In this document: in pieces, positions 4,801 to 60,057 of the stretch | How the letters are laid out: each line of letters begins with the position of its first letter | Numbering within the stretch: the stretch's first letter is position 1 | NCBI GenBank assembly: GCA_034620365.1 | Contig: JAQGEQ010000363.1 | Span: 310,001-374,000 of the forward strand | Source of the DNA: Pegea sp. RAD2-039 | Taxonomy: Eukaryota; Chordata; Thaliacea; Salpida; Salpidae | Reading direction: 5' to 3' | Length of the DNA: 64,000 nt | Position numbers and translations under genes: made by a program | The notes under the pieces: model-generated | What the model saw: only the letters and a program-made list of their open reading frames with translations | Told to the model about the DNA's origin: nothing | The model's database searches: none

Positions 4801-7800
4801 ACGTTAATTGAAGAATAAATAATCAGTTCAATTATTTGGGTTCTGTGTCTCTCTATGATAAACAATGTTGATGTAAAATAATTTTTTTGTTTTTATTTGT
4901 CCTAAAATATGATCTACCATCTCTTGGTATAATTGATTGAAAACTTTAAATAAGGTGTCCCTGATAACAATCCAGAGTTTCTTTTATTTTTGTTCCTAAC
5001 TTTTAAAAACATTTTATCTTGATTTTAATTTATGTTATTATTATTTTAGTTTATTACCACAAGGTTGGAATTATTTATTGCAATAAAAGTATCTATTCAG
5101 GAAAATCTAAAAAGATAAATTTGGTTGAGCTGAAGTTTCGTTTTATGAATATCTTATAAGGCTACTTTAATATGAGTTTTTAATCGATAAGTTTAATAAA
5201 AGTAAACAAAAACAAATAGGTCAACTCTATAATATGACAACTCAATAGTAAAAATTAAACTTGTTTAGAAATATTTCTATCAGACTCAACTTCCTAGCAG
5301 AAATAGTTTGTTCGCGATTCCATTAGTCACAATATTATTTATGATCAGTTTTCTTAGAACTTCCTTATTGTATCTTCAGATTATATCCTTGACTTTAATA
5401 AATCCTTTCAACCAAAGCCAAAAATCAGAAAATTTGAATACTGCCTGTTACTTATCAATATTAATCACAAAAGCTACATTTTTTTTATCAAATTCTTTAA
5501 ATTAGTTTAGGTATTAAATACTTATATATTTTTATTGCATAAATAAGTTTTAATAAAACTAATTTATATCAATAAAGTTGGTATTAAACTATAAATCATT
5601 TTTCATAAAGTTTTTCAAAGTGAATTACCAAAAGTTTATTGGACTTTGAATATTTATTTATATGAATTTTTTGTGCATCTTTTTACAAATATACAGAGCC
5701 GGTAAAATGTTTAATATCTTATGAAATTATGTACAACTCTAGCACGAGTTTATTTGATTCCATTTCAGCAGCACTGCTAGTGGTAAATTTTATTGGGCTT
5801 CATATTAGTTTTGTAAGTTTTCTGCTCTTCGAAATTATTAAACAATTTTACTTTTAAATGCCTTGTTCAAAAAACAACATTCAAAGTATAGATTTAAAAA
5901 AATCTAAACATTAGATTAGCTTTTAAAGTTAAAAATTAAAAACTTTAATCCTGTGGTATCTTAAAGAGCAACTTGAAGAGTTTTTAAAATTTAATTTTAG
6001 ATTATATCTGGTGGATGAAAAGAAGTTATTTTGTATTCTCTACAAAATGTCAACTTTAAATCAATTTTTTTCTTCTTTTATTTAAACTATTTTGTCTTTT
6101 CTCTCAAAAATGACTTTTAAATTCAATTTTTTTTAAATGATTCAATCTGAAGGAGAAGAATTATTGCTTTCAAACAGTTTTCTCGAATAATTATACTTTC
6201 AAATAGTATATTAACTGTTGGTTTGCAAAATCTTCCAGAAAGTATAATAAATTATTTTAATTAAATTATTTCAGATTGTTTAATAAACATTAATAATTGT
6301 ACAAACTTCTTTTGCTATCACAAAAAAGTAATAGAGCTAAAATTGAAAATCAATTGATCAAATTTAGATCATTGTAAGAATAGCTCTGAGTAACGACCTT
6401 TAGTTCATAAATTTGTGTTTCAAACTAATGTTGAAGCTCTTGGAGATGTGTTTGACCCACGCAAATGTTAGTTTTTCAAAAAATTAGAAGTTCAACATTT
6501 ATTGAAATTAGTATTGATAGTATTGTAGTTGAATGTTTATTCTTCTATTTAATGAATAATACAAAAGCATAAAAACTTTGATAAGATTTTAGTTGTTTGA
6601 TATAATATTAAAGCAAGCTGTCATTTTTAATAATATATCTAAATAAAATATCAAAGAATATGATTACCATTTTTACTGGGGAATAGCTGCTAGTTTATTT
6701 CAACAAAAAGTTCTCAAATTTAAAGTGATCAATTTTAAAAGACTTTTGCAAAATCAGTAGTTAAAAAAAATACAAATCTAGTAGAATTTAAGTTATATAA
6801 AACTCATCAGAATTTTTTTAAATTAAATAAAACTATAACTACTCAAAGATAAGCATCTTCTGTTGTTATATAAATATGTAAGCAAACAAAAACTTGTAAC
6901 CACTACAAATGAATTTATAAATTTTTCTTGATAACAAGTTCAAAATAAGAAGTATTTAAAATTTGGGGTGAAAATAAAATAAAAAACATTTTTGATCCTA
7001 CTTTTCACCCTAGCCTTGCCATAATTTTTTAAAACTATTTTATTAAAAATGAATATAAAGGAACAATATAAATAATTTGCTATCTTATTTCACGGTTTTA
7101 TTGACTTCATATATTAAATAAACAGAGTATAAAAATGCAAACAGAATAAAAAGGTCTTGTTAGATTACTTTCAAAAATATGGTGATAAAAACATTTAAAA
7201 CAAATTTTTAACTATAACTAATTACATTTATATTTAAAAGCTTCTTATTTAACTCAACAGTTAGCCAATTAAAAGTCGTTTCACGTGAATAAAAATAGAT
7301 TAAATAAACAAACTCATTTGTAAGCCGCTTATTTCTAAACCAATCTATGTTTAATTGATCTGAATATAGATGAAATATACATTCCACTTGAAAGTTTTTG
7401 TGATAACAAAAAAGTCTTTGAATGTTGTTGGAGATGTTTTCTAGTTCACCAATAAGGTCTTCTAAATGATTAGTTACCAGAAAACATAACTTTATTAACT
7501 AATAATTATCATTGATAATTTATATTTTGAATCTTATGGTTTCCTTCATGTCTTGGCTGGATCTTTTTCATTTGATTATCTCTATTAAACTGATTTAAGA
7601 ATCACCAGCAGGAATTACAGAGATGTAATTTTTATTAAGGAATTGTCTTCTCAGTATGAAATCACTTTTAATATACTTAATAACAATTATTTTGTTAATT
7701 AGGTTATAGTTAGGTGAATATAATTTCTGCTTGTTACATCTATTACTTTTACTTTTAAAAGCTGTTGTCAGTAGAGCTCAAAAGTTTGGGATAATTGTTT

Positions 7801-17300: not shown

Positions 17301-20300
17301 TTACAAAACTGAACGATATTTACAAGCAAGCATTAACCACGTGACTACAATATCATCCGGAAAGACACAAACATAAGCACGAAGAGCCAGTCTCACCACA
17401 TCTCCACGGCATTCAATAATATCCGAACACACATTACTCCTAGAATCAAAACAAACGGCAGTTTTGAGGTGGAAAAGTAGTTTTTTCTGCTGCTGCTGGA
17501 TTTAAACTAGATTCTATCTTTTGTTATATATGAAGCTAATCATTGAGAAGCATTCAAGCGTGACGAGAGAACTAAATGAGATTTTTGAAAATTTCTGTTT
17601 TTCTAATTTTTGAATTTATGAAAACAAATTTTGGAAATCTGTTTTGAATGTGTGTCTTTGTGCGGTTCAAATTATTGATTAAATTGATGGAATTTTTGTT
17701 TTCAGTTTTTAGTTAATAATTTCTTTAATTAATTCACAAAAATATTTTCGAATATATTTTGAAAGTGACAAAAAAAATTGTAAATTTTCTGATTGAAGAT
17801 GAAACTAACTTGAGGCAGGTAGAAAATATTCTACTGACGTTGTGATGATGAAATTGAATAGGGAAACCTTTAAAAGTGTGCCCTTCAGGAACGTTCCGCC
17901 TGACTGCATCTTGAAATTCACTATTACCAATATTGGCGACTGAAGAGCAACGTTCAACTTCATAACTCCAAAGAGCAGATGAGAGGAGGAAAGAGAGATC
18001 TTCATCCCATTCACAACTCAATCTCATCTCCTAAACGAGAAGTAAACGAGTCTGGGAGTTTTTATCGATTCTAATCATGTGATCATGTACACTCCTTAAA
18101 TACTAGGATTTAGAAACACGTGATTTCAGCATCAACTGAAATGACGTCATTTCGAGACCGTCTCGCTTCACTGGTTTTAAGAATAATGAATTGAAGACTA
18201 ATATGAGAAAATATTTCAGATAAATTTGAAGATTACTTTTCGATGAGTTGAAATTTTCTTCATGAGATCATGTTCTAGAGAATTACTGATTAAGATCGGA
18301 TCAAAAAAAGGAGTAGTTAACGGAGGTAAAGGTCTGCAGATGTTCGGATAAATTGAGATTGATTTAATGGCATCAAAAGTCATCCTCTTCCATGAAGCTT
18401 GATTGCTGAAGTTGAAGTGACATGTCTCCACTAAATCTAGCGGTTGGCAGTTGGCGTAGAAAGATCTGTGATTGTAGACACATCCTAGAGTAGAAAAAGT
18501 GTTTTAAGAGGATATTGGATGTTGATTTGTTACTAAAGACCTATTGATTTAAAATTGTATTTGTTTTCAGGTTGATTCTTTATTGGAGGATCATTTGGAT
18601 TAATGATGTGATGAGGATACCTGAAAAAGATTTTTACAAAAGATACATTTGATGATTTGATTCAGTTTACAAACCTGACTCCAAGAACTGAATCAATAAA
18701 GTAAACAGAATTATCAGTATAAGATAACATCACCCATGTATAAGCTGCTCCATTATCTTTGACACCAACACACACATAAGCATCTAAACCAAACCCAAGT
18801 AACAAGCTACATAACAGGTTACTGTGGTCTTGATGGTCACCCTAGTTCACAAACAACAGTTTCATCAGATTCTAATATTCGAATCTTTTTCTTTAACGAA
18901 TCGAGAAAAGTTGATTTTGTTCGAGTCACAAATTTTTTTATAAAAAGTTGGAATGAGAAAAGAGAGGCATGCTACAAAACTGACCTTTTTAGCTGTTAGA
19001 AACGCGTGAGTACTTAACCACTGCTCACTACGTGTTGAAATGCCGACTACACAATGCTTTTCATATGGAAACGCGCTAACAAACCTATAAAAGTTTCAAT
19101 TAATATCTCGTGGTTGGTGTGGGAACCAGAGATAAGTGGTTTAACCCCAAAAAAGTTGATAAAAAATCATTTTCCTCATTCACCTCATTGCCATTTTAGG
19201 TGAAGAAATGATACGATTTGGACGTAGGGGTTCTACGTAGCAACAAACAGATCTATTTACACCGGTTTCATCCTGTTGAAATGACATTTTTGTTATCCTA
19301 AAGATACAAGAGATGATGACGTCATCACCAGTAGCTACACAATACAAATGATTAATCATGAGATGCTTGTCACGTGACACATGTTTAAATGTTCAAAAAA
19401 CGAAGATAAGAGAAATGATTATTAAATTTGTACAAGAAGTTTGCAAGAAGCGAAGAATTTGGAGATGTTGTTTGGCATCGAGCAATCGATGCTTGATTAA
19501 TGAAGCATTTCATAGCAAGTTTCGTAAATTTCTTGTCAATAGAATTTGTTTGCAGCAAAAAAACCTCAAATATCAAAATAGAATTGCAGAAGTGAGCAAA
19601 TCAACAACTGATCTTAAACATCATCACTTCTTTCACCTGAGCAAAGATCTTGACCGTGCGGCTCTTGTGTTCCTCCCTGATCTCCAAATACTCTTTCCAC
19701 CATTGTTTGGCGTACACCAGAAACAATCTTTCGCGTTCTGCTGCCCTCTGGTGTTCGAGACGTAACTGAGCATCGACCACTTGCGACGGTATGGAGAGCG
19801 AAGGACTTCGAGGAACAATTTCCATTCGAACATCGAGAACACCAACTGGGACTTTACACTCCGATCCTACAGATCTTATATCAATCTCAGACTCAAGTGG
19901 ATGCAGGATCTCACCGACTCCCATTAACTCCAATCGTGACGTAATTGCTGTCTTCCCGCAATTAAGAGTCTTCCTCCATTCAAGAGAATAGGAAGAGACA
20001 AGAGAGATGCATCCGTCTGCGTCATGTTTGGTCAACACTAAATGAATAGGATCACAAAATGACAACAAAGTCTCTTTACTCATCAACTGGCACCCGCCAC
20101 CTAGTGGTATCAGTTTAGTTTTAATCTCTGGGTAATTTTTGCGTCTCACCGTGTTCGTTGCTACGCAACTCGAAGAGGAATCCATCACGAATGTTGGGTT
20201 CCACAGAAACTGGAACTGGTTTAGAAGAGAAGCGCTGAGATCGGAAATGAAGATTAAGATGAAAGAAAGAGTCATTCAGTTTGCCGTCAAAAGCTGTAAG

Positions 20301-22925: not shown

Positions 22926-25900
22926 TTAGCAAACTCTACTAATACTTCCAATTGTACTGGTCTTGAAGATATGGTACTTAGTGATAAAATAATCTTCTGA
23001 AATCAAAAATTGATTTATTTTTAAATATCTTTTTAAAAGAATTTAATTAGTAATGCAACAACAAAAAGTTATGACAATTTTATGACATCGTTTTAGGGAA
23101 TTTAAACAATTGTTTCTACAAAGTTAATTCTAGTCATAAGTTTACCAAAGTCACCTGAATGCCAACGAAATGCTGCTGTAATCTCTTCATCAGTATGACT
23201 CCATCCCTTCCAACGACCTCTAATCCGTTTACCTTTTACCTTTGGTTCATACATATTATACTCATCAAGCAACGAATATCTATTTTCTGAGTTCAAATAA
23301 AAAGCCTTTAAAATTGTGAATTTTTCTTTAACGATAAAATGAAGAAAGCTAAAATCTGACATACTTTTTAATAAATAAAATTTATCGTCTTCTCCCAAAA
23401 TAACTGCTGAGTTTTTTTTAGGCAATCCAAACTGTTTTTTCAAGTGACACGGACCAACTTCATGTTTATTGCCAAAAAATCTCCACATGAATTTTTCTAT
23501 TAGTAGGCAGTGCCTTGTGTTTAAGATTTTACAAATTAAATATCAAACAAATGTTTTACTTTTAAAAAGATAGGTTCTGTGGGAAGCTGATGAATAAACC
23601 GCCCCACTAATAGGACCTGCAACATCTTTCCAAAACGAACTTATAGTTCTTTCCTCTTGCTGTTGTCCATTATCATCAAATGTAAAAAAGTAATGTCCTT
23701 GAAAGATATAGACTAGTGACTTTCCATTATCTTTTCAAGACATGGGTCATTAGTTTCATAAATATCATAGCTTAAGTCGCTAACCATAAAAAGCTGCATC
23801 AATAGAATACTGGCGAAGACGGTTGCAAATTTCTTCAAGTTTATTTCTCCGCGTACCTAAGAAATTGTCTATGGTTATTAATCTGCTGACTAATTATCGT
23901 TATCACCATATAATCTTTCAATAGCTTTAATTTCATCTCCAAAAAATTGAAGATCGTCCATTTGTTCGTTGTATATTGGATACATTAAACTCTCTTCTTC
24001 ATTTGATAAAAATAATCCTAATGCATGACCTATAGCATTAATCATGACAACCACCACATGGTTTTCTAAAAATTTCATTTTATCATAATATAAAGTTCAA
24101 GTAAATTTTTCTTGCAAAAAAATCTAAAAATAAATCAACAAACTATTTACCGTTGCATGTAATTAGATTGTCTTCATATATGAATATTTCTCCGTCTTTA
24201 GGAAGGTAAGCTGATGCAAATACTAGAAGAAAAGTTGAAGTATTACAAACGAGTTTATTTAGGTGATTGAATATAAAAAAGTATTTTGTAGTTTGCTTAC
24301 AAAAAAACAATTTGAATATAACTTTTAACAGCAGCCTACTACAAACAATTTGATTATTAAATTGATTTATTTCAACAAACTTTAAACTATTCATAAGGCA
24401 AAGCTTACAATTTTTGTAATGGTCTCTTGAATGATTTAAATATTGGTAATCTTCCCATACTTTGAAGACTATTTTGATATTGGTATCAACAGAACAATCA
24501 ACTCTTGTAAAATCCAGTATAGATACGTCTGTCCAACGATCAAAAGCTCTAAAATTCAACGAATAACTAGTGATTAAGTAAAATTGTTAATTTGAAGATT
24601 AAGTTCAATACGTTTTTACAATTTTACTAAAACTTAAAGCTGAGTTTTGCTTTTAAGCTCTGTGTTTAATGACTGAGAATGCTTCTGTGGGAAAACTAAA
24701 CGGAAAGAGTTCAAATATCCTCTTAAGTAGACCGTCATATAAAGAGTGCTTGTGACACAAACTAAAGTTTAGATTCATAAAGTTCATTCTGTTAATTACA
24801 ATTAGATGTATGCTCAAACATTGTTTTTATATATGACTGGACTACATATTATTTTAGTTTAAAGTTTACAAATTCATAATTTCATAAACAAAGAGAAGAA
24901 TAAATATTCAAAAGATCACAGTGTAAATAATAGATTGTCAACAAATAATTAAATTAAATTGTGTAACGTAAAAATAAACAGAAAAAACAAATTAGAAACT
25001 ATTTAGCTAAACAAATATAAAGAACAGAAAACAGAGACAAAGAGAAATGTTTAAAGGAAACCGTCTTATATCATAACAATATCTAATTAAAACCACTTCA
25101 CTTTCATGTAAGCGACCTTGCCAATAACTCTTCGATTTTTCTGCGGGAAAAATAATGTGGAGAACGTTTTATACAGTATGTGATATGATTGGTATCCCAT
25201 TTTACATCTTCAACTAAAACAACACACAGCATATTCTTATAATTTTGATTTCATATTCAACAGTTTAGAATAAAACTTAAAATCGTGTACTTGTTTTTAT
25301 ATATCGTTTATTTCGGACGTATTTTCTGTTTTTGGTAGGCTCACTTATTTCGTCTGTTCTGCGGTTAATATCTTTGAATAAAAAGTATCAAAATTACATT
25401 AAAAAAACTAAGATGAAATTTTCTTAATATTAGAAAAAACTTCAAACTACCAGTTATTCAAAAACACTGAAAAATAAAAACTGAATTTTCAACAAACATT
25501 CACCATTGGTTGAAGGAAAAACTTTTCTAGGTTTACAGTTTGTAGATGTCATCAGCATCATTGTTTCATAATTTAAAATCCCGAAATCTTGTAATCCGTT
25601 CAAATATTGCCATTTACTAAATTGTACAGCAAAGTAGTTAATCAATTTAAACAAACTACATTTACGACTTACCTCAAAACTTCTTTAAAAGTCATGTTTG
25701 AATAGAAAAAGCTTTTGTCAGACAAAGCGGCGAAGTTTTCCAGACAAATCTAGTGATGAAATGTAAACCAATTATTATTTTTAAATTTTATTATAAGAAA
25801 AATACCTCAGCTTTAACCAAATTTAATTTATTTACAAAATTATTTGCATCTTGTGTAAATATTTGATTTTGCCCATTCAGCTGCAGAAAACTGAACACCT

Positions 25901-25964
25901 TTGAAGGAGATATGACGAATAAAACGGCAACAAGTCTCAACCAGCTCATATCTGCATATTTCAT
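22926..25964 (-). CDS. Matrix metalloproteinase-like protein lacking the catalytic zinc site
   Basis: Secreted MMP-fold protein of 491 residues, a normal MMP length. Thirteen exons join in phase: 25806-25964, 25673-25749, 25504-25616, 25291-25371, 25117-25213, 24409-24548, 24151-24222, 23907-24065, 23785-23856, 23560-23730, 23365-23496, 23155-23286, 22926-22996. Order: signal peptide (residues 1-25), propeptide with YLNGLQDFGILNYET, cysteine-switch region TNCKPRKV (C106, but not PRCGxPD), furin-type site RNKR at 136-139, catalytic fold (VKWDTNHITYCI, ARAFDRWTDVSILDFT), then four hemopexin blades (DAAFYDNGKSLVYIFQG, AAFRWHS) ending in Cys. The zinc motif HExxHxxGxxH reads NAIGHALGLFL (residues 256-266): one of three His remains and the Glu is Ala. 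The structural-zinc segment is also changed (FASAY for AHAF). The Met-turn LMYP persists. No in-frame stop or frame break remains once 50-78 nt introns are placed, so an inactive but maintained protein is likelier than a dead gene. Confidence 0.88.
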
Positions 25965-32673: not shown

Positions 32674-32979
32674 TCAGCAAGTTGATTGCTTCAAATTCGT
32701 TGTATTAACCATCTTTTTTCCACACATTGCACAAATTCCTTTGACAAAAGCACATCCTTGACAGAAATAAGCACCTGATTGGTGAATCAAGCTTTTACAG
32801 ACTCGACATTTTTTAAATTTTCCACTACTGTAAGGATTAAACCGATTCTTTGATTGCGTCAATAATTTATTTTCATTCAATTTACGACCACCTCCTTCAG
32901 TGATGTTTCTAGCTCCTGCTTTCCAGGGATCAGGAGTAATAACTTTGCTGAGCTTGTGTTGACATTTTTCACAAACCAT
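32674..32979 (-). CDS. CRIPT: CRIPT, cysteine-rich PDZ-binding protein
   Basis: Small zinc-binding protein, 101 residues from the Met at 32979, as in other animals. A Met two codons upstream (32985) is possible but the family starts MVCEKC. CRIPT is known as a PSD-95-binding protein and as part of the minor spliceosome. Four CxxC knuckles are present: CEKC, CRVC, CQGC and CAMC. The hallmark block GARNITEGGGRKLNENK is conserved. There is no intron. The human C-terminus QTSV is replaced by QSTC, which still has Ser at position -2 but ends in Cys rather than Val, so PDZ-domain binding may differ. It lies upstream of POLDIP3 on the same strand, with its 3' end facing that gene's promoter. Identification is firm. 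Confidence 0.96.
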   Translation of the reverse strand: MVCEKCQHKLSKVITPDPWKAGARNITEGGGRKLNENKLLTQSKNRFNPYSSGKFKKCRVCKSLIHQSGAYFCQGCAFVKGICAMCGKKMVNTTNLKQSTC

Positions 32980-35900
32980 AATCAATAGTTAGAAATGATT
33001 AATTTGTTGAAACTGTTAAGAGCTAAAAGTTAAAAATGGATAAAAGTTAAATTAAATGTTTTTTGTAAAAATTGATTATTTTAACTTACTTTTGTTTCAT
33101 AGAAATCTAACAATAATATAATTAGAGTTAAATTATATATATAAAAGAATTATATATATATATAAGAATATAAAATAAATATAAGATATTTAACATAAAA
33201 ATCGCAAAAAATAATCTTTTAAAAAAAGGATAAATATCATAAAAATGTCTTTCTTTTTCATACAATCAACAGATTTTCAGCTTGTTTAGATTAATATAAA
33301 TAATAACTTGAAATATAAATAATAAATTTTAATGTAAATCAACAAAAGTAATAAAAGTTTTAACTTTTTAATAAATAAATTAAATAAATGAAGTATGCAA
33401 AAAAAAGTTAAATAAATCTAAAAAGTAATACTAAATTTATAGAGTAGCAAATTGAAATACCCATTTTAATACATATATATATATCCAGAAATATAAATAA
33501 TGATAAATAATTAAACTTTTATTATCCTTTAAAATGAAAAAAATCATTATGTTAAGCTATTAGTGATAAATAGTTTATTACAAAATAGAAAAGATTAAGA
33601 CTTAATAAAAAATTGAATTTTTAAAAGCATCAAACAACTCAAAACATAATATTTAACAAATAAAGTTATTTTATAAATAAAACCTCATTATAAAAGTGGT
33701 TAATAATTAAAACCAAATAATAACTTTTCACAATAATCTAAAACTAAGAATGATTTTCAAACTAAAACATAATTTCATTTTGCAATAGCTTACTATAATT
33801 ATTCAATAAATAAAATTAAGTTGATTTTATTAATTTAGCAAAATATTAAACAACTTAAAACTGCATTACATTATTGAAAAATATATTTAACTTATTGTAA
33901 TACAAATTTATTTATATCTTCAGAAATAATCACTAAGAAAAGTTTGATACTTAAAAAAACATTGAGTTAAATAAATAAATATACTCTAAATAAATCAGAA
34001 TAATCAAATTCCATCCTAAACACTTCTAGAAAAAAAAATAACTTACAACTTAATTCACAGAACAACAGAAAATACCTTATTATCAACGCAGAAAACTAAT
34101 AAAAAATGAATACTACTAAAATGGCTGAAATAAAAAAATTAACAAGAAATAGTAAATAAACACATTATACAACATTTAGCACTTAAAAAATTAGCTGAAA
34201 TACAGATAAGAAAGTTTTTTGACTACTAAAATTTCATTACTAATATCTTTTTCAATAATCAAACGTTAATTTTGAATATAAGAATTGATGTGGGAAGAGA
34301 AACTTGCTATAATTTTTCGATTTTATCATTTAATGATTTCATATTATTCTTCAGACAGTGAAAAGTTTAAGAGGACCCTATAAAGATTATATTATTTGTA
34401 ATAAAGAAAATTACTTAAATTACATGTTAATTTTCAAGAATTGCAACAAAATGTTTACCAAAGTTGTACATGATACAAAGCCAATTTAAAAAATAAATAC
34501 AAAAATTTGATAAAGCTTCTCATATCCAATTTATAAACTTTTTCACACTAAAATATTTTTCTCTCTATGACTTACCAAACTCTACCAATATTTCGAATTG
34601 TGATGACTTTGAGGATATAGTACTTAGTGGTAAAATAGTTAGCTAAGGTTGATTTTGATCTCAAGAAGTAGAATTTTTAGATAATTTATTCTACATTTCG
34701 TGCTTTACTGCACGCTGATACAACATAACCACTCTTTAGCACCTTCTACCACCAAGTAAATGCTTGTATGTAGGGCAACATTTTCTCGTTTTAAACATTT
34801 TGCTGAAAGCTTAAACAATGACATGTAACTTTATTTTAGTTTTTGTCTTTATGTGAAATAGAACCAAGGTTGCTGGCTTACAGAGTTATCATTTTCAATT
34901 ACTTTGGAACTAAAAGCAAACTTTAACATTAAAGTTACATTTTTATCCTAGCCGTTTTATTCGTATTTAATATTTTTCTCTTCACTAAGCATGTTAGCTA
35001 TAAGTGCCAAAAAGCATGCATCCTTATATGAATTTAATTGAAGTGCTCTTTGGATAAAATTTGTTGAAAAATCTCTAATCTTTTATAATCATTGTTAGCT
35101 ATTTCCGTTGAAAGTAGATAACTAAATTTATTTGTGAAATAAGTTGATAAATATTGTTAATCTTAAGTTTCCAATTCTTACTAGTATTTGTTACATTTTT
35201 ATAACTCTATCTACTTAAAATATAAAAAAAAACTTCTAACTTTTTAAGGCTAAAAGTGAATTATTTTTTCTACAATAGAGGACAAATTACTTTTAGTTTT
35301 GCTTGCTTATTAGAGTAATAAGAACTTTTATTTGTATTACTAGCGATGATGCTTGTAAGTTCAAAATACAAGAAATTCAGAAAAAAATCAGTTTGGCTTT
35401 CTTTGGCTCTTTGATTTAGAAATACGAACTTTGCTATGTTGACGACTTGCTTTTAACTACAAGTTAACTCAATTTTTAAATCATTTGTAGTTTTTTTAAA
35501 CTACAGCAAACTTAATCTTCGTTGGAATTAACGAAAAAAACTTTTAGAGCTATAACAATTCTATTTAATCTACTTTCTCGACTTCTGTTAATCCGATCAT
35601 TTTCTTAACAAAGATAAGCTGTCAGATGCAATTGAACTAACCTATAGTGTTTTGACTTTAATTCTTTCTAAAATTTTCAAACATTTTAAGCTCTTCACTA
35701 CTTTACAAATCACAAAATTCAATCTCTACCAGGTCAACTATTACACATCTCAAAATAAGCTTCTTGGTAGGCGACTTCTGAATCTCTTAGTATAAACAGC
35801 ACCATTAGTTTATTTGTTATCAACAGATACTTAGTTACTACAAACAAATCAAAATATTCTCAAATTTGTTTAGTTCTTATACTACTTGGCTTTAAATATT

Positions 35901-49100: not shown

Positions 49101-52100
49101 GAACATTTTTTGTTAATGTTTCAAAATTAATTTAATTAATTATTTTATCACAAAAAATCCTGAGAAGAATTTGAACATTTTGGCCTTTTTATCTTTTATG
49201 AGGTTGATAATAATGTAAACAAGCTACTAAAAAGCAATCAATCATTGGAAGTTGATAATAATTTAGCTTTGATTTAGATATCGTCTTCTGACTGAAGACA
49301 AGTTTATTTGATTTAATAGAATTTAAAGATAGAATAAAAAAGATTATTTTTTAAGTTACATTAAAGATGTGATTAAAATAGAAATAAATTTTCTGTTGTT
49401 AAATTTTTTAAATATATTTATTAATTACAAATTTTTGCTTATCAGAATTTCCTGCTTTCATGAGAACTCCTCCAAGCATGATGATTCGACAACTTGGTGA
49501 CCAATTAAAACTTAGTTGTTCTGTCATTGGACGACCTATGCCACGTGTGACATGGCAAAAAGACGGCTGGCCGTTACTAACCATCAACTCAAATGTAAAA
49601 GCATTTTTTCTTCAAACTTTAAATCAAAATTCTAATCGAAACTTTAGTGTCTTCAAATCTATTTTAGGATATCAAAACTTTGTTTAGTTAAATAAAAAGC
49701 AGACAAAAGTATAAATTCAAATGTAGATAATTGCTTTTGGTAGGTGGGTTGTTTAAGTTATTAAATATTCATGAAAGGATTTTTGTACAATGTTTCTTTT
49801 TCATTTACTAAAGTAATTCAGATCCTTCATTTGGGTGCTCCTTATAAAATCCCTTTAGTAAGTCCCACAAACTTCAGACTGTCGTCTTAAGTAAGTTATA
49901 AATCAAAATCATGATTTAAACGCTTAAATACTAGAATACTGTAGCAATTTATCATTTACACAGAAAGTAAAAATAACTTTGATTGAGGTTTGGCGTATTT
50001 GGTTTAGTCTGGAATACATTTGATGTGAAAAAGATCAAAAATTTTATGTTTTCGGAAATGTTTTGAAACAAATATTGTTTTGGTGAACAAAATGTCTTTT
50101 TTTCAAATTTGTTTCTTTTGTTCATGAAAGTTTAAAGATTGAATTTACAAGAGAAGAATTACAAGAATGATTTAAAATGTTGTAAATATTTTATTTACTT
50201 GCAAAATTACTAAGTATTTCATGAACAAGCAGTTGACTTTTATAAAATTCTCACTAAACAGTAATCATATATTAACTTTAAAATTTTATTTTTTAGGGCT
50301 AACTCTTCCTTAAACGATAATTAAAACTCTGAATAATTTACACAAAGAGTACAGATGAGAAAATAAAGTATCTTCTTCATTATCAAGTCATTTAACAACT
50401 TATCTATAAAATTAGATTTATTAAATATTTTATAAGAAGTTCAAATCACCATCATTTGTCAGCGAATGAATTAATTTGTCATTTTTAACTTTAATTTGTA
50501 ATTTTTCGTCTGACTGAACTGACAGCATAAGATTCCAGCCAACAATTTTACTAATTTATTATTTACTTTGATCTCTTATACCACCTTCCTTATTTTTCCA
50601 ACTGTTGTTTTTAATTACTACTCCATCATATACTAACCAAAAGTTTATTCCAAATTAACTTCATCTTATGAAAATCATTTATAAAAATTTTCACTTAAGT
50701 TTTCGCTAAAGATCTTCAATTATTGCAGAATGATTGGAGGATAACAGATGAAACATTGACGATAATAAGACTGAAACGAAGTGATAGAGGCGATTATGTT
50801 TGTCGCGGTAGGAACTCTATTGGTATAGTCGAACACAAGACAACAGTATTTATTGAAGGTCTGTATTGATGAAGAGTTTTTATTTTTTTAGGAGGTATAC
50901 TGATTAATTTACAATCTAATGTTTGATTTAGTGTTTCAAGATTGCGATTTTTGTTTAATGTTGATTATAAAAGATTAACTTTTAGTTGTTTTTAGTGAAA
51001 AAACATTTAAGAATGAGTAAAAATGTGAAAGATAATCCAGATTTTATTGATTCAATCGATCTTCAGTTGATTCTATTTTGTTATTCTAAATATCTTCTAC
51101 TTTTGCAGCTCCTGTGATAATCACTTCCCCTCCAAGGAATCTTACTACTAAAGAAGGTTTAGAAGCTTATTTTACTTGTAGAGCTAGCGGTTATCCCTCA
51201 AATATAACTTACACGTAAGTTATATAATCCTTAAAACTTCCAATCAAAAGTAAACATCCTTAGCTGGCTCTTCAATGATCAAGAGATCTCCCATCATAAG
51301 ACTATGAACAAACATTTCAAAGTGGTTGATGGAAGTTTGATTTTCAAGTCTGTTCGGAAAGAAGACACAAACTCAAAGATAACCTGTATTTCCTCAAACG
51401 GTCTCAATCCTTCAGCCAACGCTTCAAGTTACCTTACAGTCCAATGTGAGTTCTTAATCCAGCCACTTGATGGCGCTACAGCGAGTTGAAAACATTAATA
51501 TTGGTTTTAGTTTGGGTTTTTCCCCCATTTCTCTCCTCTACAGATATTAAATTTTCATCTTACTCGGATTGAGGAACAAATCGGATTAAAGTATCAACAT
51601 TTTGTTGATGTAAATTAAACTAAATTCAGTAACCTTCACATTTACTTTTAAAGTGTAAAACTCGAACGAATTTTCGAAATAAAAATATCTTAATAAAAAT
51701 AGTTTACTTCTATTACGCCAACATACAACTGATGACGTCACAGACGCTGCTCGAGTCATTGCGCATCAGAAGATCGTTTATGGAGGACTAAATCTTCCAC
51801 TAACAGTGAGCTGCAAGTCTGAAGCAGAACCTCCTACATCCACTATCACGTGGAAGAAAGGAGATCAACCGATCGCGAGTTACGAGAAGGTTGTTGTGAC
51901 GTCATGATGACGTCATCACTGACACGTGCAGCTTGCAGACGAATCGGGTTTATGTAAATGAGCACGGAGAGCTTCAATTCCGTCGAGTACTCCTCCAGGA
52001 TGAGCTTTTTTACTCCTGTACTCCTTACAACATCATTGGGACACATGGAGAGTCTCCTAAGATGGAACTATTGGTCCGTCCACCTCCTAGAATGGTCCAA

Positions 52101-55100
52101 AAACCCCGTGAAGAAGTCCGGGTCCAAGCAGGACAACCTTTTAACGCTTCTTGTAGTGGAAAAGGAGATCCTACTCCGAAAGTTTACTGGGAACAGGTTT
52201 GGGAGTAATCTAGAGGTAGGGATCTTTCTTTAAAGATTTCTCGATATTTCAGGAAGTTCTTGATTCTAATAAGATGAAGAAGATCTTCATCCGTAGATCT
52301 GTCGGAAGATCTTTGGTTGTCGGAAGATCGATGAAGATCGACAATGGAAGATGGAGATGTGTTGTTAACAATCAAATCACTTCAATCATTTCTTATATGA
52401 GAGTGTTAGTACTCGGTGAGACAAAATGTCGTTTTGACAAATTGGCACAACAATTCTCTCTGTAAAAAACTTCTCAAATAATTTTAAGTTTTTAAATCTG
52501 AAAGGAACCACTCCACATGTACCAACTAATATATCAGTGACGACAACTACTGATACTGCTACCATCTCTTGGGTGCCAGGTTTTGACGGTGGACTTCGTC
52601 AACACTTCCTTATTTGGTAATATTTCTTTTAATTTATTTATTTTGGTCTGTCGTTAAAAATGTTGTTGAAAGTTTGTTCAAATATAAATTAAATAATTTC
52701 AAAAATTGAAAAAAAGTTCTGATTATTGTTAAAACTCATAATTAATAGATTAATTAACGGTTTTTACAATAATGAATTTCTAATAAAACATATTTGTAAA
52801 GATTAAACTTTAATAGTTTTGTTTCAAATGTGTTAAAGTTACTTAAATTTTATCAGAGAACACATCTACTAAATCATTTTTGTTCAAATACTGACCTTTT
52901 AGAACAACCTATAAATAGGATCAAGTGAAAAAAATCTCATAAAAAAGATTAAATAGTTTAAACGTCAAACATAGACTTAAATATCTTCCAATTTCAACAA
53001 AATTTTCGACAAATATTTTTATTTCAGCCGTTTTCAATAATGTTGCTTTTCTAGAATAGATCAATACAAGATTTTTTTTTATCTCTTCTTGCTTTCCAGG
53101 TATAGAAGATCTGGGGGTGATGAATACGAATGGTTGACTTTATTCTCAAATGGCAAAAAAAGATCAGAAACACTTCATGATCTTCGACCTGAGAGTATTT
53201 ACGAGTTTCTAATCCTTCCAACTAACTCAAGGGGATCTGGTAACTTCAGTCGGACAGTTATCGCTCAAACAAAAGGTCTTCTTCGTTCTTGATTACATGA
53301 AGACACAACCAGTCCAGAATTAATGACGTAAAGACATTTATGTTGCAGCCACCCCGGTCACCAACAGTCAAATACCGACACACGAGTATATAGCGCCACC
53401 TGGTGGTCTAAATTTCTCTCTAACAAGTCAAGGACTCGTTCAGTTGAAATGGAACTCGAATCAGACATCGAAGTCGATTTTAATTGGTTTAATCATCGAG
53501 TTTAAGCATACAAATGCATCTGGACGATTCAACTTGAAGAGCAAATGGGAGAGTTTTGCGATGGTCAATAGCAGTAGGAATACTTACATCATAACCAAGG
53601 ATAGAATATTTCGAAATCATTTTTATAAGTTTCGAATATTTGGTGTTTATCACGGATTTGAAACTTATTCATTACCCAGCGAGCCTGTCCTAGTCAACAC
53701 GTCAGGTGGGCCACATCTTGTTGTCATGGCTTCAAAATCATTTTTATTTTTTAACAGGTTTTACTAAGTATCCTTTCTATGTAGCGCCCACTAGCGACGA
53801 ACGTGTAGCGATAATTTCAGGGATTATTTGTGGTGTTTTGATGATGATCATTGCAGTAGTTTGTTGTTTTGTTTGTTGTTATTTGCACCACAGATCTAAT
53901 CGAGGTACTTTAATTTTTATCTATGATTATGTTTAAAGTTTTTTCTTATTATTTTCAGAAATATGACTTGTAACTAAATTGTTGCTTAGTTCATTCATGT
54001 AAATAAATGGTTTAAGTCACAATTAGTAACATGAATTAGATTTATTAAATCTAATTACAACTTAAGCATATAATTTACACCTAATTTATAGAAATGTAAA
54101 TCTTTTTTAAGTTTAAATTACGAATAAATCGATAGAAATTGTGTATAGATTTTCACAGCGTGTAAACTGTGCAAATAATGGCGTTTTACAGAAGTTCCCT
54201 AAATTATTCGTTCTATTTTACCAACACTTTAAAAGTCTGATATTAAACCACTTTAAGCAAAGATAGAACATAACTTATTTTTAGATTATTATTCATGAGA
54301 ATCACTCACTAATATAGAATATTGATAAGAGAAAAATCTAAAATAAACTAGCAACAAATATAAAAGAAAAATCTAAAATAAACTAGCAACAAATATAAAA
54401 GAAAGAAAATAATTTTACAGCTTTTTACCAGATGCTGTTTTTGTTTTGTTTTAACCTCAAGTCACCAAAACAACTTGAAGTTTATTCAAGAATAACAATT
54501 TGATAAATTTATATGATCTTTTTACTTTCAGATTCTAGATATAAGCACAAAGTAAACGAGTCAGACTACAAAAAGTAAGTGATTTCTAACGATTCTATTT
54601 CTGTAGATACTTGTTGAGAATAAAATACATAAATTATTCAGACGTAGAAAATTCAAATTGCCAAATTATCAAGAATTTCATGTTATTGTATTTAAAATAT
54701 TTAACATGTAAAAACTGTTGCTTATGTCTTTTAGCTGTTACTAACTAAGTAACATTAAATATTTATATTCAGCGTTTTGTAGTATTTAAATGAATGAACT
54801 TCCGTCAGTAACTACTCTGATGATTTGCAGTCTGCAAAGCAAATTTATTTTAGTTTACAATCTTTGAAAATAGCTTAAGTGAATATTTTTCCTATTTGTT
54901 TTGTAGTCTAATGATTGGTCTCAATCTGTTATGTTTTTAAGTCAAGATTTCAAGGCTAGGTATCTTTAAATAACTAAGAAAAGTAAAGAGTAATTTATCA
55001 GAGTAAATATGATTCTATAGTGATTAGCTTTTTCTTATTTTCTCTGACTTTGGTTTTTGAAATTCAATTTTTAAACTACCAAGTTATTGAATTTTTATGA

Positions 55101-58100
55101 GTTTGTTAAACAAAGAAGTTTATCAGACAAATCGTTTCAAAAAACTTTCTCTTTGATTTTTTATTATTTTAATACTGACGGTTGATTCAATAATTATTTT
55201 TGCTTTATTGATCAATAAGTTTAGAGTCTTTTCTCTAACTCAATAGCCTAAAAATAATTTCAATTTTTATTACTTAAAAACTGGTCAGTATTTACATCAA
55301 GTAGTAAGTTGTTAATTTCTATTTTCATTCAATATCAAAGACCAATGCAAGATCTGTATTTCATTAATAATATTCAACAGTTTATTGAGCAAAGTTTATT
55401 GAAATAAAAACTCAACTAGAAAACTTGTTACTGCAGAATAATAATTTCTAGTTTTTCAAATTCAGAAAAAGTTTTATCAAAATATTTTTCAATAAACTTT
55501 TGTTTTGAATTTACAAAGAAGTAAAATATGTTTTCAATGAATAAATTTGAAATCAAGTCTGATCTTTGATGTTTATCTTTTTTCAAAAACAATTTTTGTA
55601 AACGATGATTCAACATTTCACATTTAAATAATTCAGTTACAAAAAACATACAAAATTGACTACAAACTCTTTATACTCTTTTAGAACATAAAATGAATTT
55701 TTCAGTAAGAAAAAATCTACCAAACATTCAGTTAGTAACTATTTCCATTCAGCATTAGTTACCAGATGGTTAGCGCAAAACTAACAGATAACTCTTCTTA
55801 TTAAAAGAGGTTCAGGCTGCAACAAAGGTAGTAGTTAAAGACGATAAAATTTGGATATGACGGGTTTAAGTTGAGAATAAAAAGGGCGCCAAAAGTTATC
55901 AACGGTTGCTATTAACGACGCTAAACCTGATAAGAAAGTTATCGGAGAAGGTTTAGATAAGCAAAACAAGTTAAGTGTTGATAGATAGGTTTGAGATTTT
56001 GTTGTGTGGCTCCGACACTATTTTATTTGATAGTTAAAATTGTGAGCTTTTTTATTTAGTAGTTGATTTACTGCTGATCATAGTTAAGTTTGCTAATAAC
56101 AACTAAAGCAAAAATTGATGGATAAACAAAATTTTATTGCATTTCTGTTGTTTATTTATTTCCAATATTTCATTTGAAACGATTTATGTCATTTCTACAA
56201 ATATTTTGAAATTATCAGCTACGTCAAAACTGTTGGAATATCAAATGTTTTTACTACGTGATAAAAAGTTGGTAATTTCCTACTTAAAGAATTTATCAAA
56301 TATTCAAATGAAAAGTAATTTAATCTAGTTGTAATCATTAAATATTTAAGTTAGATGTATTACAAAAATAAAACATGATTTAAATCGTCTTAAAACCGAA
56401 CTTTCTATTTTAGACTTAAAATCAATGATTTATTTGATAGCTAAATTATTCATTTAATAAGAATTAAAATAACTAAACCAAAAGTCTTTAAACTAACAAT
56501 TTATGAAAATTGCAAAAGAGCTAGACTTAAGGATTTTTAATTAAATTAACTTTTGTTTATAAATAAATATTGTTAGTAGCAAAGCTTAAACAACTCGGTC
56601 TATGATACTAATTTTAGATACTTTTTCGTCCAAAAGCTGATATCAAATAATATTTTAGCAAGTAAATGAAATAATTCATAATATTTCTTAAATTCTGAAA
56701 ACTACTTTAACGTTAAAAATGAAGTTAAGATGAAATCGATAAATAGTTAAATCCCTTTTGGGTTTACAGCCTCATGTGACTAAGAAAAGAAATTTTTAAT
56801 TCAGCATTTCTAATTTCTAAGAGATTTAGTGGCCGGTAGCACTTTGAACTATCCTTCAAACGCGTAAACACTTCATTGCAACTTAAAAATTACTTTTAAT
56901 TTTTCTTGTTTTTTTGGCTTTTTAAGAAGATAATAGAATAGTTCAAAAGGTCGTGACTCGCTTTTACCAATTTCAAACAGACTTATTTTATTGTTAACGT
57001 AAACTTTTTGTCTTCAATGATTATCAAATTTAGTCATATTACGGGCGATTGCCTTTGCTCAAGTCAGTTACTTATGAAATATTCTAAAAGTATAAGGTTG
57101 CTTAAGAGGTGTAAGCAAATTTTTTAAGTATTTTGTTCCAAAGTTTTTTTAGTCATAAAAAAAGCACAACTGTTTTGCAAATTAGTTTATGTTTTTTTAA
57201 AATCTTGTACTGTAAGAAGGTTAATTGTAGTCAGTTTTTTAGAATTTCACTTTGTTTATTATTTTGAATATCAAAAGTCAAAGTAAATTGATTTTTTTTT
57301 TTTTGTAACTTGTCATGAAAATAGCTATAAATATACTTATGATCAATAAATTTTGACTAAAGCGTATTACTCATAAATCAATTTAATAGTAGTTTATAAA
57401 ATTTTCAAAATAGTTTTTTAACATTTTTCTAACGTTGATTTGAGTATATTTTTTATAAGACCGTTTTTGGGTATATTTTTCTCTTAAATTTTAAAAATCG
57501 TTACAAAAATTGTGAAATGACTAAATTTTCTGCCATACTTATGTAATTAGCCAAGAAATTATTTTTTAACTGAAAGTTTTGAGTATAATTTTTTGAAAAT
57601 ATGACATGTAGCTTATAGATAGGTGTAAATTTACTGATGACATATACATTTTAAAAGTTGTTTAATCATCGAATTATTTTTTCTGCTGTCATAAACTAAT
57701 CTTTTTAATCATTGAAAAGTTTCTACAAATATTTAGGTCTTCAATTTAATAGTTTCATTATTTTGATTTTCAATTATGCCATTAAAGTTTAAGAAGCTTA
57801 AAAGGTAAAATGTTCAGCTGAAAATTGTTTATTTTTTTATTTAGTCAAAAATATATCGATAAACTTTAAATAAGTTCATGTTTTACAGTTTTAGACAGAT
57901 AGAAAAAAAAATTGAATAAATTTGTACGTTAAGCTCTTTTCAAAATTGTAAAAATATATTTTTTTTTAGTATTCTAACTTTCCGGAAAAAAGCTCAAATT
58001 TGGAATGATTCTGATGAAAATTTGGAAACATTAAATTCAGATCGTAAAAATGGTAATTTCGTTGAAGTCACGAAATAAATATTTAAATTTTTGTAACTGA

Positions 58101-60057
58101 ATGCTTCTGTAGATTCATCAAATCATAACAATGGAAAAATCAAGGATCATAAAGTTGGGATGTTTCCAAGATTAAAAAAGAAGTTTTCTATGAATCGAGG
58201 CAACAGTACTATTCATAAAAAGAATTTATTAAAAGCAACTACGAGTAAAAGTGACAACTTCAGTGAAGGTATTTTGAAGGTTACTTTCCATCAATTATTT
58301 ATTGATTCTAAAACTCAGCAGATTCTTCAAAAAAACTCTCAATCATTCACCGATCAGCTGACGGAAGATTTCGACCATCTTCTAAAAGCTCCTCCTATCA
58401 ATCAAATGCTCTCAATTCATCCGCAGCAGAAAAAACCGCGATTCTTCGAAGACATTCTACGATAGTAACCACCAAGGATACCGGAATCTCATCTCATCGT
58501 CCAATCAGCGACTGTTATGGAGAAATTCGAGCGCAGACTTTACTTTATGCCGGATTAAACAGCGGAACGATCCAAGAAGAAGAGGAAGAGCTAATAGAAG
58601 ATGGAGGATACGAGATTGATTGTAGTAGAAGCGATATTGAAGTTCGATGTCTTTCAAAGAAGAACTCTTCGATGATTAATCAAAGTATCCGACATTCGAT
58701 GAGACCGATGAGAGACTACGAATCTGTGAAACTGGATTTTCCGAAAGCACATTACATTAGTTTAAAAGAATTGTCCAATCACCAAGCTCCATTTCGATTC
58801 AACTCCCGACTCTATCTTGATTCTCCTCCACCAATCAATCGATGGAGACATTTGGAAAATGTGTACGGGACCTGGTCCAAACGGTCTCAGACACGTGATA
58901 GACAGACCATAGATCGACAAAGGACATGGACCACTCGTCCACATCTCCTAGAACCTCTTCAACGTACTGACCCACAAGCTAGTAGTGATGTGGTAAAAGT
59001 GAATGACGTGAAGTTAGAGGACAGCACCTTGAAACCATCTGTCATCAACTCGTCTAACTCGATGCCTTCTATTTTACCTCAACCAACTAACAAGTGTGAC
59101 GTCATTTCCGCCCAGCCACGTCGCTCCGTATCCGGTGATAATCTATCAGAAGTGATGTCATCAAAGGAAAAGACTTCAAGTGATGAAGTCGAGAAGTTGG
59201 AAGATGAGGATCAGTCGGATTTCAATTCTCTTCCAACTTCTCGTCAAAATCAAGATCTTTCTGATCCGAAAACGACGCGGATTCTTAATGACGTCACATC
59301 GTCGTCTAGTGGATATGAAAGTCGCAACGCTTCTGCTTCGTCGTCATCTGAGTCTTCGGCGTCTCAGTTACGTCATGCTACGCTTCACTGCGCCGAGATT
59401 CCATCTTTGCTTCGACCAGCTTCGTTGTCACTCAAGTGTGACGGGACACGTGATAGACTCGAAGAAGTGAAAAGAAGCACGACAAAGCTGGATGCTCTTC
59501 ACTTGATGCATCCAGAGAACCTCAGGTTGATCCTCGTTGATGAAAGGAGTCTTTTCGAATCTTGAGATTTTTTTCAGCAAAAGAGATACGTCATCAGTTG
59601 ATGATAAATATGAGTGGGATTTGGAAAACGCGATCAAGTCCGACATCTTGGACGCTCTTCATAATTACAGATCACACAAAAACCTCACTCCTCAAGTCAA
59701 GCTCAATAATATAAGTTTGGATTCAAGTCCAGCTCCTAGAGAAGATCCTAATCTTGCTCGTGATCCTTTTGTAAGTTTCATTTCTAAATTCTGATTAATT
59801 TTTGAGTTTCTAATTCAGATCGATGAAAGATGTTCGGAAAACAGTGAAGAAGATGAAAGTTATTCGAAGGAGAGTATGGAAAAAAGGTGCTTCCCCGTTT
59901 CTTGTTAAAAGTTCAATTTTATGATTTACTTCGAGTAATTGAGTTTACTGATGTTTAATTGAATCTCTAATCTCTTTACAGATGTGCTGCTCTGAAAAAG
60001 GAGTATCGTCAATATAAATATTTCCAGAAGTTTAACGTCGATACTACAAACTGTTGA
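40144..60057 (+). CDS. IGSF9: IGSF9/Turtle-type neuronal adhesion receptor, complete
   Basis: Type I receptor of 1409 residues; the family guides dendrite branching, axon tiling and synapse maturation. Twenty-three in-phase exons: 40144-40195, 45683-45874, 46454-46495, 46578-46742, 48385-48411, 49446-49594, 50729-50858, 51109-51214, 51264-51445, 51744-51889, 51939-52196, 52253-52415, 52505-52616, 53100-53275, 53349-53705, 53758-53904, 54532-54574, 57970-58052, 58113-58268, 58319-59525, 59578-59770, 59819-59886, 59982-60057. Order: signal peptide (1-17), five Ig domains (about 20-538), two FN3 (538-750), membrane span (about 769-795), Ser-rich cytoplasmic tail. Diagnostic matches to human IGSF9 as remembered: FYSCTPYNIIGTHGESP, ISWVPGFDGG, and tail motifs TSSVDDKYEWD and RCAALKKEY. 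Five Ig plus two FN3 excludes Robo (three FN3). The tail ends in NC, not a usual PDZ ligand. The 27-nt exon 48385-48411 is the least certain. Confidence 0.94.
42883..42892. promoter_or_regulatory. E-box palindrome GTCACGTGAC in IGSF9 intron 1
   Basis: Exact 10-bp palindrome of USF/TFEB type in a compositionally complex patch (42600-42910) of an otherwise AT-rich intron. Being non-coding, it is the copy likeliest to be regulatory. Confidence 0.4.
43736..43759. promoter_or_regulatory. RFX-like X-box next to a CRE palindrome
   Basis: GTTGCTAGGTAAT (43736-43748) is one base from the RFX half-site consensus on its right arm. TGACGTCA follows at 43752-43759, three bases on. X-box plus CRE is a known composite arrangement (for example in MHC class II promoters). 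A similar GTTGCTAGGTGAT occurs at about 20385 in a CEP76 intron. Confidence 0.3.
47289..47303 (+). promoter_or_regulatory. CTCF-like motif in an IGSF9 intron
   Basis: CCGCTAGGTGGCGGT lies in a short GC-rich island (about 47270-47315) inside the AT-rich intron between exons 4 and 5. It differs from the CTCF core by G for A at position 3. It is non-coding and isolated, so it is the best candidate of the three such motifs for a real binding site. Confidence 0.4.
51733..51740. promoter_or_regulatory. CRE palindrome TGACGTCA at an IGSF9 splice acceptor
   Basis: The palindrome ends three bases before the exon that starts at 51744; the acceptor reads GACGTCACAG. It lies in the intron but within the acceptor region, so it may be sequence context rather than a regulatory site. 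Confidence 0.25.
51890..51938 (+). other. 49-nt IGSF9 mini-intron with two CRE palindromes and an E-box
   Basis: The intron contains TGACGTCA twice (51897-51904 and 51908-51915) and ACACGTGC, and ends TTGCAG. It joins GAGAAG to ACGAATCGG in phase 0, restoring the Ig4 domain up to YSCTPYN. About a third of the intron is made of the two palindromes, an unusual density. Confidence 0.7.
53392..53406 (-). promoter_or_regulatory. CTCF-like motif inside IGSF9 coding exon 15
   Basis: The minus strand reads CCACCAGGTGGCGCT, a full match to the CTCF core as I remember it. It encodes IAPPGG in the linker before FN3-2, so protein constraint alone could explain it. A weaker relative (TCGCTAGTGGGCGC, minus strand) lies near 53785. 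Confidence 0.3.
54331..54400 (+). repeat. Perfect 2 x 35-bp tandem duplication in an IGSF9 intron
   Basis: The unit begins GAAAAATCTAAAATAAACTA and ends AAATATAAAA; the second copy starts at 54366 with no mismatch seen. This suggests a very recent duplication. It lies in the intron 53905-54531. Confidence 0.85.
54575..57969 (+). other. IGSF9 intron 17 (3.4 kb)
   Basis: Separates the juxtamembrane exon from the cytoplasmic tail exons. Mostly AT-rich. A more complex island at about 55740-55990 (AGGGCGCCAAAAGTTATC and neighbours) is a possible regulatory element. The ORFs at 55428-55649 (-) and 56137-56328 (+) look like chance. Confidence 0.5.
59097..59104. promoter_or_regulatory. TGACGTCA within IGSF9 coding sequence
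   Basis: Encodes part of CDVIS in the cytoplasmic tail. A second coding copy lies at 59289-59296 (part of NDVTS), and a third coding copy at 542-549 in the left-edge gene. Recorded because the octamer is over-represented in exons as well as introns. Confidence 0.25.

Follow-up and report, generated by a model that had tools for sequence, protein, structure and literature searches.

A matrix metalloproteinase gene with an intact reading frame and dismantled metal sites, a candidate secreted pseudoprotease

Catalysis by matrix metalloproteinases (MMPs) requires the Glu and three His residues of the motif HExxHxxGxxH. MMPs have also long been suspected of non-proteolytic roles exerted through the hemopexin domain, which have been hard to separate from catalysis. 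The archetypal secreted, furin-activated MMPs (MMP-1; PDB IDs: 2clt and 1su3) share with the protein described here a signal-like N-terminus, a propeptide Cys, a furin-type site, a full-length matrixin match, the Met-turn, and a hemopexin domain with cysteines at its ends. Unlike MMP-1, this protein has replacements at the catalytic Glu, two of the three catalytic-zinc His, the three structural-zinc His, and the calcium residues, and it has lost the context of the cysteine switch and has a short hinge and a short last blade.

Metalloproteases with substituted sites are a known kind. In the available sections of PMC3650047, broken motifs are reported in some members of approximately half of the HExxH domain families, among which the inactive ADAMs are the best studied; section 6 of this source names reprolysins, CLCAs, BSPs, M2, and M54, and not hemopexin-bearing matrixins. 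The inactive ADAMs and other zincins described there resemble our protein in combining a metalloprotease fold with a substituted HExxH and a presumed decoy or accessory role, although our protein has lost structural-zinc and calcium residues as well. The accessible text on echinoderm (PMC8467561) and planarian (PMC3566077) MMPs describes an altered PRCGxPD switch, as in our protein, but a conserved zinc motif. Among the matches listed for inactive MMPs and pseudoproteases in the open-access literature, titles and abstract openings named no natural full-length MMP pseudoenzyme, and the available part of PMC1867822 held nothing on inactive MMPs. We place our protein, as a predicted member, with the metzincin pseudoproteases and not with the active MMPs.

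The gene lies in a 64-kb stretch of DNA, hereafter the window, with a G+C content of 26.9%. Thirteen exons on the minus strand (25964..22926) joined in phase into 491 codons and a stop, reproducing the MMP proposed in the initial annotation, and the interval singled out there, 23907..24065, was exactly exon 8. The features were as follows.

22926..25964, minus strand: candidate MMP pseudoprotease gene of 13 exons encoding 491 aa; the ATG begins at 25964 and the stop codon ends at 22926; hand-made model
25806..25964, minus strand: exon 1, start codon, a hydrophobic stretch resembling a signal peptide (residues 8–19, 25943..25908), beginning of the propeptide
25673..25749, minus strand: exon 2, propeptide
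25504..25616, minus strand: exon 3, end of the propeptide, with Cys106 in the altered cysteine switch (TNCKPRKV, 25543..25520)
25291..25371, minus strand: exon 4, furin-type site RNKR at 25315..25304
25117..25213, minus strand: exon 5, beginning of the matrixin domain
24409..24548, minus strand: exon 6, matrixin core; 140 bp, equal in length to the exon of sister L026; Asp209 in place of the first structural-zinc His
24151..24222, minus strand: exon 7, structural zinc/calcium segment; FASAY at 24220..24206; two His replaced by Ser226 and Phe236, Asp by Tyr238, and Glu by Asn241
23907..24065, minus strand: exon 8, with the zinc-helix remnant NAIGHALGLFL at 24039..24007 and the Met-turn LMYP at 23988..23977; its 159 bp equal the length in both sisters
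23785..23856, minus strand: exon 9, short hinge and beginning of the hemopexin domain (Cys310)
23560..23730, minus strand: exon 10, hemopexin domain
23365..23496, minus strand: exon 11, hemopexin domain
23155..23286, minus strand: exon 12, hemopexin domain
22926..22996, minus strand: exon 13, last blade in shortened form, Cys491 as the final residue (its codon ending at 22929), stop

Exon boundaries were picked by hand on the three-frame translation. A splice-aware aligner fed with the 491-aa protein gave the same boundaries, which shows only that the model is self-consistent, because the aligner received the modelled protein itself. Some splice donors were weak (e.g., GTCGCT and GTACAC). The gene showed none of the marks of a pseudogene: no stop occurred in 491 codons, the frame was intact, and all 12 introns were GT..AG.

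The 491-aa protein matched the whole Pfam Peptidase_M10 profile (positions 1–159 of 159; residues 148–300) with 85 bits (E 6.5e-24), above the curated cut-off of 24 bits, and this whole-domain match marks it by sequence as a matrixin. The Hemopexin profile was matched with 35.7 bits at a loose cut-off (E 1), and the best match among solved structures was interstitial collagenase (MMP-1; 2clt; E 7.4e-18), which we take to be the human enzyme. Both domains of the initial annotation were recovered by profile. Of its four hemopexin blades, the domain itself stood, but only two Pfam stretches were matched and the last blade was shorter than in the sister genes L026 and L027. The hemopexin domain bears a cysteine at each end, Cys310 and Cys491, which may form a disulphide. 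By hydropathy scan only, the highest windows ran from residues 8–11 onward. The furin-type site RNKR occupies residues 136–139. The hydrophobic N-terminus, the propeptide, and the RNKR site suggest that the protein is secreted and processed by furin.

The position of HExxHxxGxxH reads NAIGHALGLFL (residues 256–266), in which the catalytic Glu is replaced by Ala257, the first catalytic His by Asn256, and the third by Leu266. Since the Glu and two His are absent, the protein should not cut peptide bonds. The losses extend to the structural-zinc site, where the three His residues are replaced by Asp209, Ser226 (within FASAY, residues 224–228), and Phe236, and to the calcium residues, where Asp has become Tyr238 and Glu has become Asn241; these structural-zinc and calcium positions are named after those generally given for MMP structures. 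The fourth structural-ligand column (Asp in MMP-1) holds Gln, although this column also varies among the other loci, and one calcium-loop Asp is perhaps retained, depending on the alignment used. The dismantled zinc site, the altered FASAY segment, and the persisting Met-turn (LMYP, residues 273–276) of the initial annotation were all borne out. Its altered cysteine switch held for the context, PRCGxPD having become TNCKPRKV (residues 104–111), but the switch cysteine itself, Cys106, remains.

To compare these losses with the rest of the domain, we took the 28 columns common to at least 10 of 11 rows (MMP-1 and ten of the genome's 22 other M10 loci, each represented by its matrixin domain) as near-invariant. 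The window protein retains 13 of these 28 positions, and His260 is the only one of nine near-invariant metal or catalytic residues still present. With the columns sorted into metal and other by general MMP structure after the residues were known, retention was 12/19 for the other, structural positions and 1/9 for the metal or catalytic ones (Fisher p 0.016); moving the calcium-loop Gly into the metal set gave 12/18 and 1/10 (p 0.006). Change is nonetheless spread across the whole protein, beyond the active site.

A profile search over the 105.7-Mb genome, which lists the best candidates and could miss a more degraded MMP, gave at least 50 exon matches in 23 M10 loci, including the window gene. 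Among the matches listed, HExxHxxGxxH was intact in 21 of the 22 other loci, and the nearest relatives of the window gene were two motif-intact genes on the same contig, L026 and L027, which lie approximately 8–9 kb from each other and approximately 560 kb from the window gene. These two genes and the single exception to the motif are located as follows.

C21:886001-895000: L026, sister MMP with HEFGHALGLAH
C21:895001-904500: L027, sister MMP with HEFGHSLGLAH
G000:C6:1284001-1293500, near 4886, minus strand: L031, M10 gene with HEIGHSLGLRD, in which Asp stands as the third zinc ligand and the rest of the motif is intact

The search for an active paralogue suggested by the initial annotation thus yielded two sisters with HEFGH[AS]LGLAH, which are presumably active by their sequence. 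In a full-length tree of eight rows, comprising six of the 22 other loci (L026, L027, L028, L029, L031, and L032), the window gene formed a clade with L026 and L027 (98/98), within which the two sisters paired (91/90) with the window gene outside. The end branch of the window gene was 1.79 changes per site, against 0.57 and 0.15 for the sisters, the stem of the pair being 0.3. In a catalytic-domain tree of 12 rows, which covered 10 of the other loci (all 22 except L030, L033, L034, L037, L039–L041, L043, and L045–L048), the window branch was 3.3 against 0.44 and 0.33, and the placement of the window gene was unsure; in a hemopexin-domain tree of six rows, it was 1.5 against 0.55 and 0.21. Overall, identity to the sisters was 25–36% by domain (0.25 and 0.34 in the hemopexin domain, 0.32 and 0.31 in the catalytic domain). 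Special conservation of the propeller is unsupported because hemopexin identity was no better than catalytic identity, despite the shorter branch (1.5 vs 3.3, from differing row sets).

The exon layout and intron phases of the sisters are like those of the window gene. Compared with L026, 11 of 12 introns had a counterpart of equal phase no more than 8 alignment columns away, which for seven of them lay in the identical column, and the first intron differed; compared with L027, 10 of 11 modelled introns agreed in phase and the last disagreed. The paralogue models are computed, uncurated, and rough at their ends. Because its introns match those of L026 in position and phase, the window gene is, on this evidence, an old DNA-level duplicate of the L026/L027 lineage; a retrocopy was ruled out by the introns common to the window gene and the sisters. 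Unlike the window gene, the sisters have kept the PRCGVED switch and the LAHAFFP and HFDE segments, and they sit on shorter branches.

The same search recovered a family that we take to be gelatinase-like with fibronectin type II sequence. Five near-identical copies (L036, L037, L045, L046, and L047; C80) extend over approximately 36 kb and show no stop in the 62-codon stretch examined. Three further copies of this family (L039–L041; C128 and C36) are degraded and likewise contain fibronectin type II-like sequence. In addition, L029 and L030 (C59, at approximately 491 and 516 kb) have opposite orientations, a separation of approximately 24 kb, and zinc-helix regions that are identical in translation, and are either an inverted duplicate or an assembly doubling. 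L044 (G000:C3:2484001-2493500, minus strand, approximately 5400–4730) has hemopexin repeats and no recoverable matrixin domain within the 9.5 kb read, and was rejected as a second dead MMP because a hemopexin match was all that was recovered.

To evaluate whether the gene is decaying or maintained, we simulated neutral drift from L026 (512 codons) and L027 (461 codons) with 300 runs per distance, using the living sisters as ancestors, the gene's intron base frequencies, a kappa of 2, and no indels. At a distance of 0.05, stop-free runs numbered 0/300 from L026 and 2/300 from L027. At a distance of 0.3, where 49% of residues were retained, the mean number of stops was 24 (L026) and 21 (L027), with minima of 13 and 10, and where 33% were retained the fewest stops were 21 and 16. 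By a binomial 5% bound, drift that leaves at most one of the nine metal residues needs a retention of approximately 0.43 or less, a level reached between the two simulated distances of 0.3 and 0.5; at both of these every run had at least 10 stops, whereas the window gene has none in 491 codons; simulated retention is an average over all residues under a single kappa and a single base composition. A chance open frame was ruled out by the Pfam E-value and by the at least 22 stops per run in near-saturated simulated sequences. In our judgement, synonymous sites should be saturated against L026 and L027 at 25–36% protein identity.

The degraded copies L039, L040, and L041 offered a comparison within the genome. 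They have 1, 1, and 2 stops, respectively, in the 62-codon stretch that is open in the five related copies, are identical to L036 at 48, 47, and 42 of 62 residues, and all read HEIGHTIGLEH; since one stop is common to all three, they are not three independent cases. These decaying copies have stops with an intact motif, the reverse of the window gene, which has an open frame with a lost motif. Indirectly, and from one genome, these data suggest that the protein was kept while the metal sites were given up, and we infer maintenance of the gene by selection.

We therefore consider it fairly likely, with clear room for doubt, that the gene encodes a secreted, furin-processed MMP pseudoprotease that arose as a DNA duplicate of the L026/L027 lineage, had its metal sites dismantled, and was kept folded, most likely for binding. 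Duplication at the DNA level from the lineage of the two motif-intact MMPs would have been followed by loss of the catalytic-zinc, structural-zinc, and most calcium residues with retention of a folded protein, which would be secreted and then cleaved at RNKR. The hemopexin propeller and the zinc-poor matrixin domain could then occupy matrix, cell-surface, or partner sites. Binding is the likeliest role because the hemopexin domain is retained, and the protein probably acts as a binding protein and not as an enzyme, although this role is itself a guess, as is any target or partner. In its simplest form, this role would be competition with the sisters, or cooperation with them by guidance. If true, a natural MMP that keeps the fold marks without the chemistry, in a genome with two sisters whose motif is intact, would allow a direct test of non-proteolytic MMP roles, and it raises the question of whether a matrixin can still fold once structural zinc and calcium are lost.

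A recently inactivated gene, which was a fast-evolving active MMP until lately and has not yet gained a stop, could account for the long branch over the entire protein, the shortened last blade, and the lost hinge, and degraded MMP copies do occur in this genome. Against such decay stand the loss of eight of nine near-invariant metal or catalytic residues, the retention that drift to this state would need together with the stops in every simulated run there, and the GT-AG ends of all 12 introns, and we regard it as improbable. The intact frame on a long branch, the metal-focused losses, and the reverse pattern in the degraded copies favour a pseudoenzyme over a decaying gene, which gives the initial annotation indirect support on this point. 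An artefact of the gene model or assembly that masks a normal zinc-helix exon is harder still to credit. The model was made by hand from sequence and some donors are weak, but none of the six reading frames across the 64-kb window contains HExxHxxG (an intron interrupting the motif would hide it), exon 8 agrees in length and phase with its counterpart in each sister, and the introns flanking it are only 85 and 50 bp. Six HExxH- or HQxxH-type strings occur in the window and none inside the gene, and on these grounds a hidden zinc exon was ruled out.

Within the favoured reading of a retained binding protein, more specific roles are each less certain. By analogy, a decoy or dominant-negative competitor of L026 and L027 for common substrates or inhibitors is conceivable, if on balance doubtful: the domain and exon layout is the same as in the sisters, and the accessible sections of PMC3650047 propose decoy or accessory roles for inactive ADAMs, but a hemopexin identity of just 0.25–0.34 means that common ligands with the sisters are not assured. 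Slightly more tentative is the broader proposal of a matrixin without catalytic-zinc, structural-zinc, and calcium sites, selected as a metal-free or metal-poor fold and serving as a non-enzymatic partner of the two active sisters. A protein serving matrix structure or adhesion, uninvolved in regulating proteolysis, would fit the retention of the fold marks, including Cys310 and Cys491, without the active site; it seems unlikely, as the propeptide and furin-type RNKR, unneeded in such a protein, persist. The initial annotation suggested that the protein perhaps acts through its hemopexin domain as a decoy or matrix-binding protein, and this domain is kept. The net charge of the hemopexin domain was +11 in the window protein, +14 in L027, and +3 in L026, and basic charge does not single out this domain because the motif-intact L027 is more basic. 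A search of the genome for TIMPs gave no match, and the controls were likewise without any match.

The window holds other coding sequence around the MMP gene. Downstream of it on the same strand, positions 19601-20275 (minus) matched the CEP76 C2 domain with 72.1 bits. On the plus strand, positions 49412-59565 contain frames that we take to be Ig-like and fibronectin III-like, a hydrophobic stretch, and a 417-aa frame, with one weak fn3 match below the cut-off, and the whole presumably has the look of a Robo-type receptor. A 104-aa frame with cysteine pairs at 32674-32988 (minus strand) resembles, in our estimation, CRIPT.
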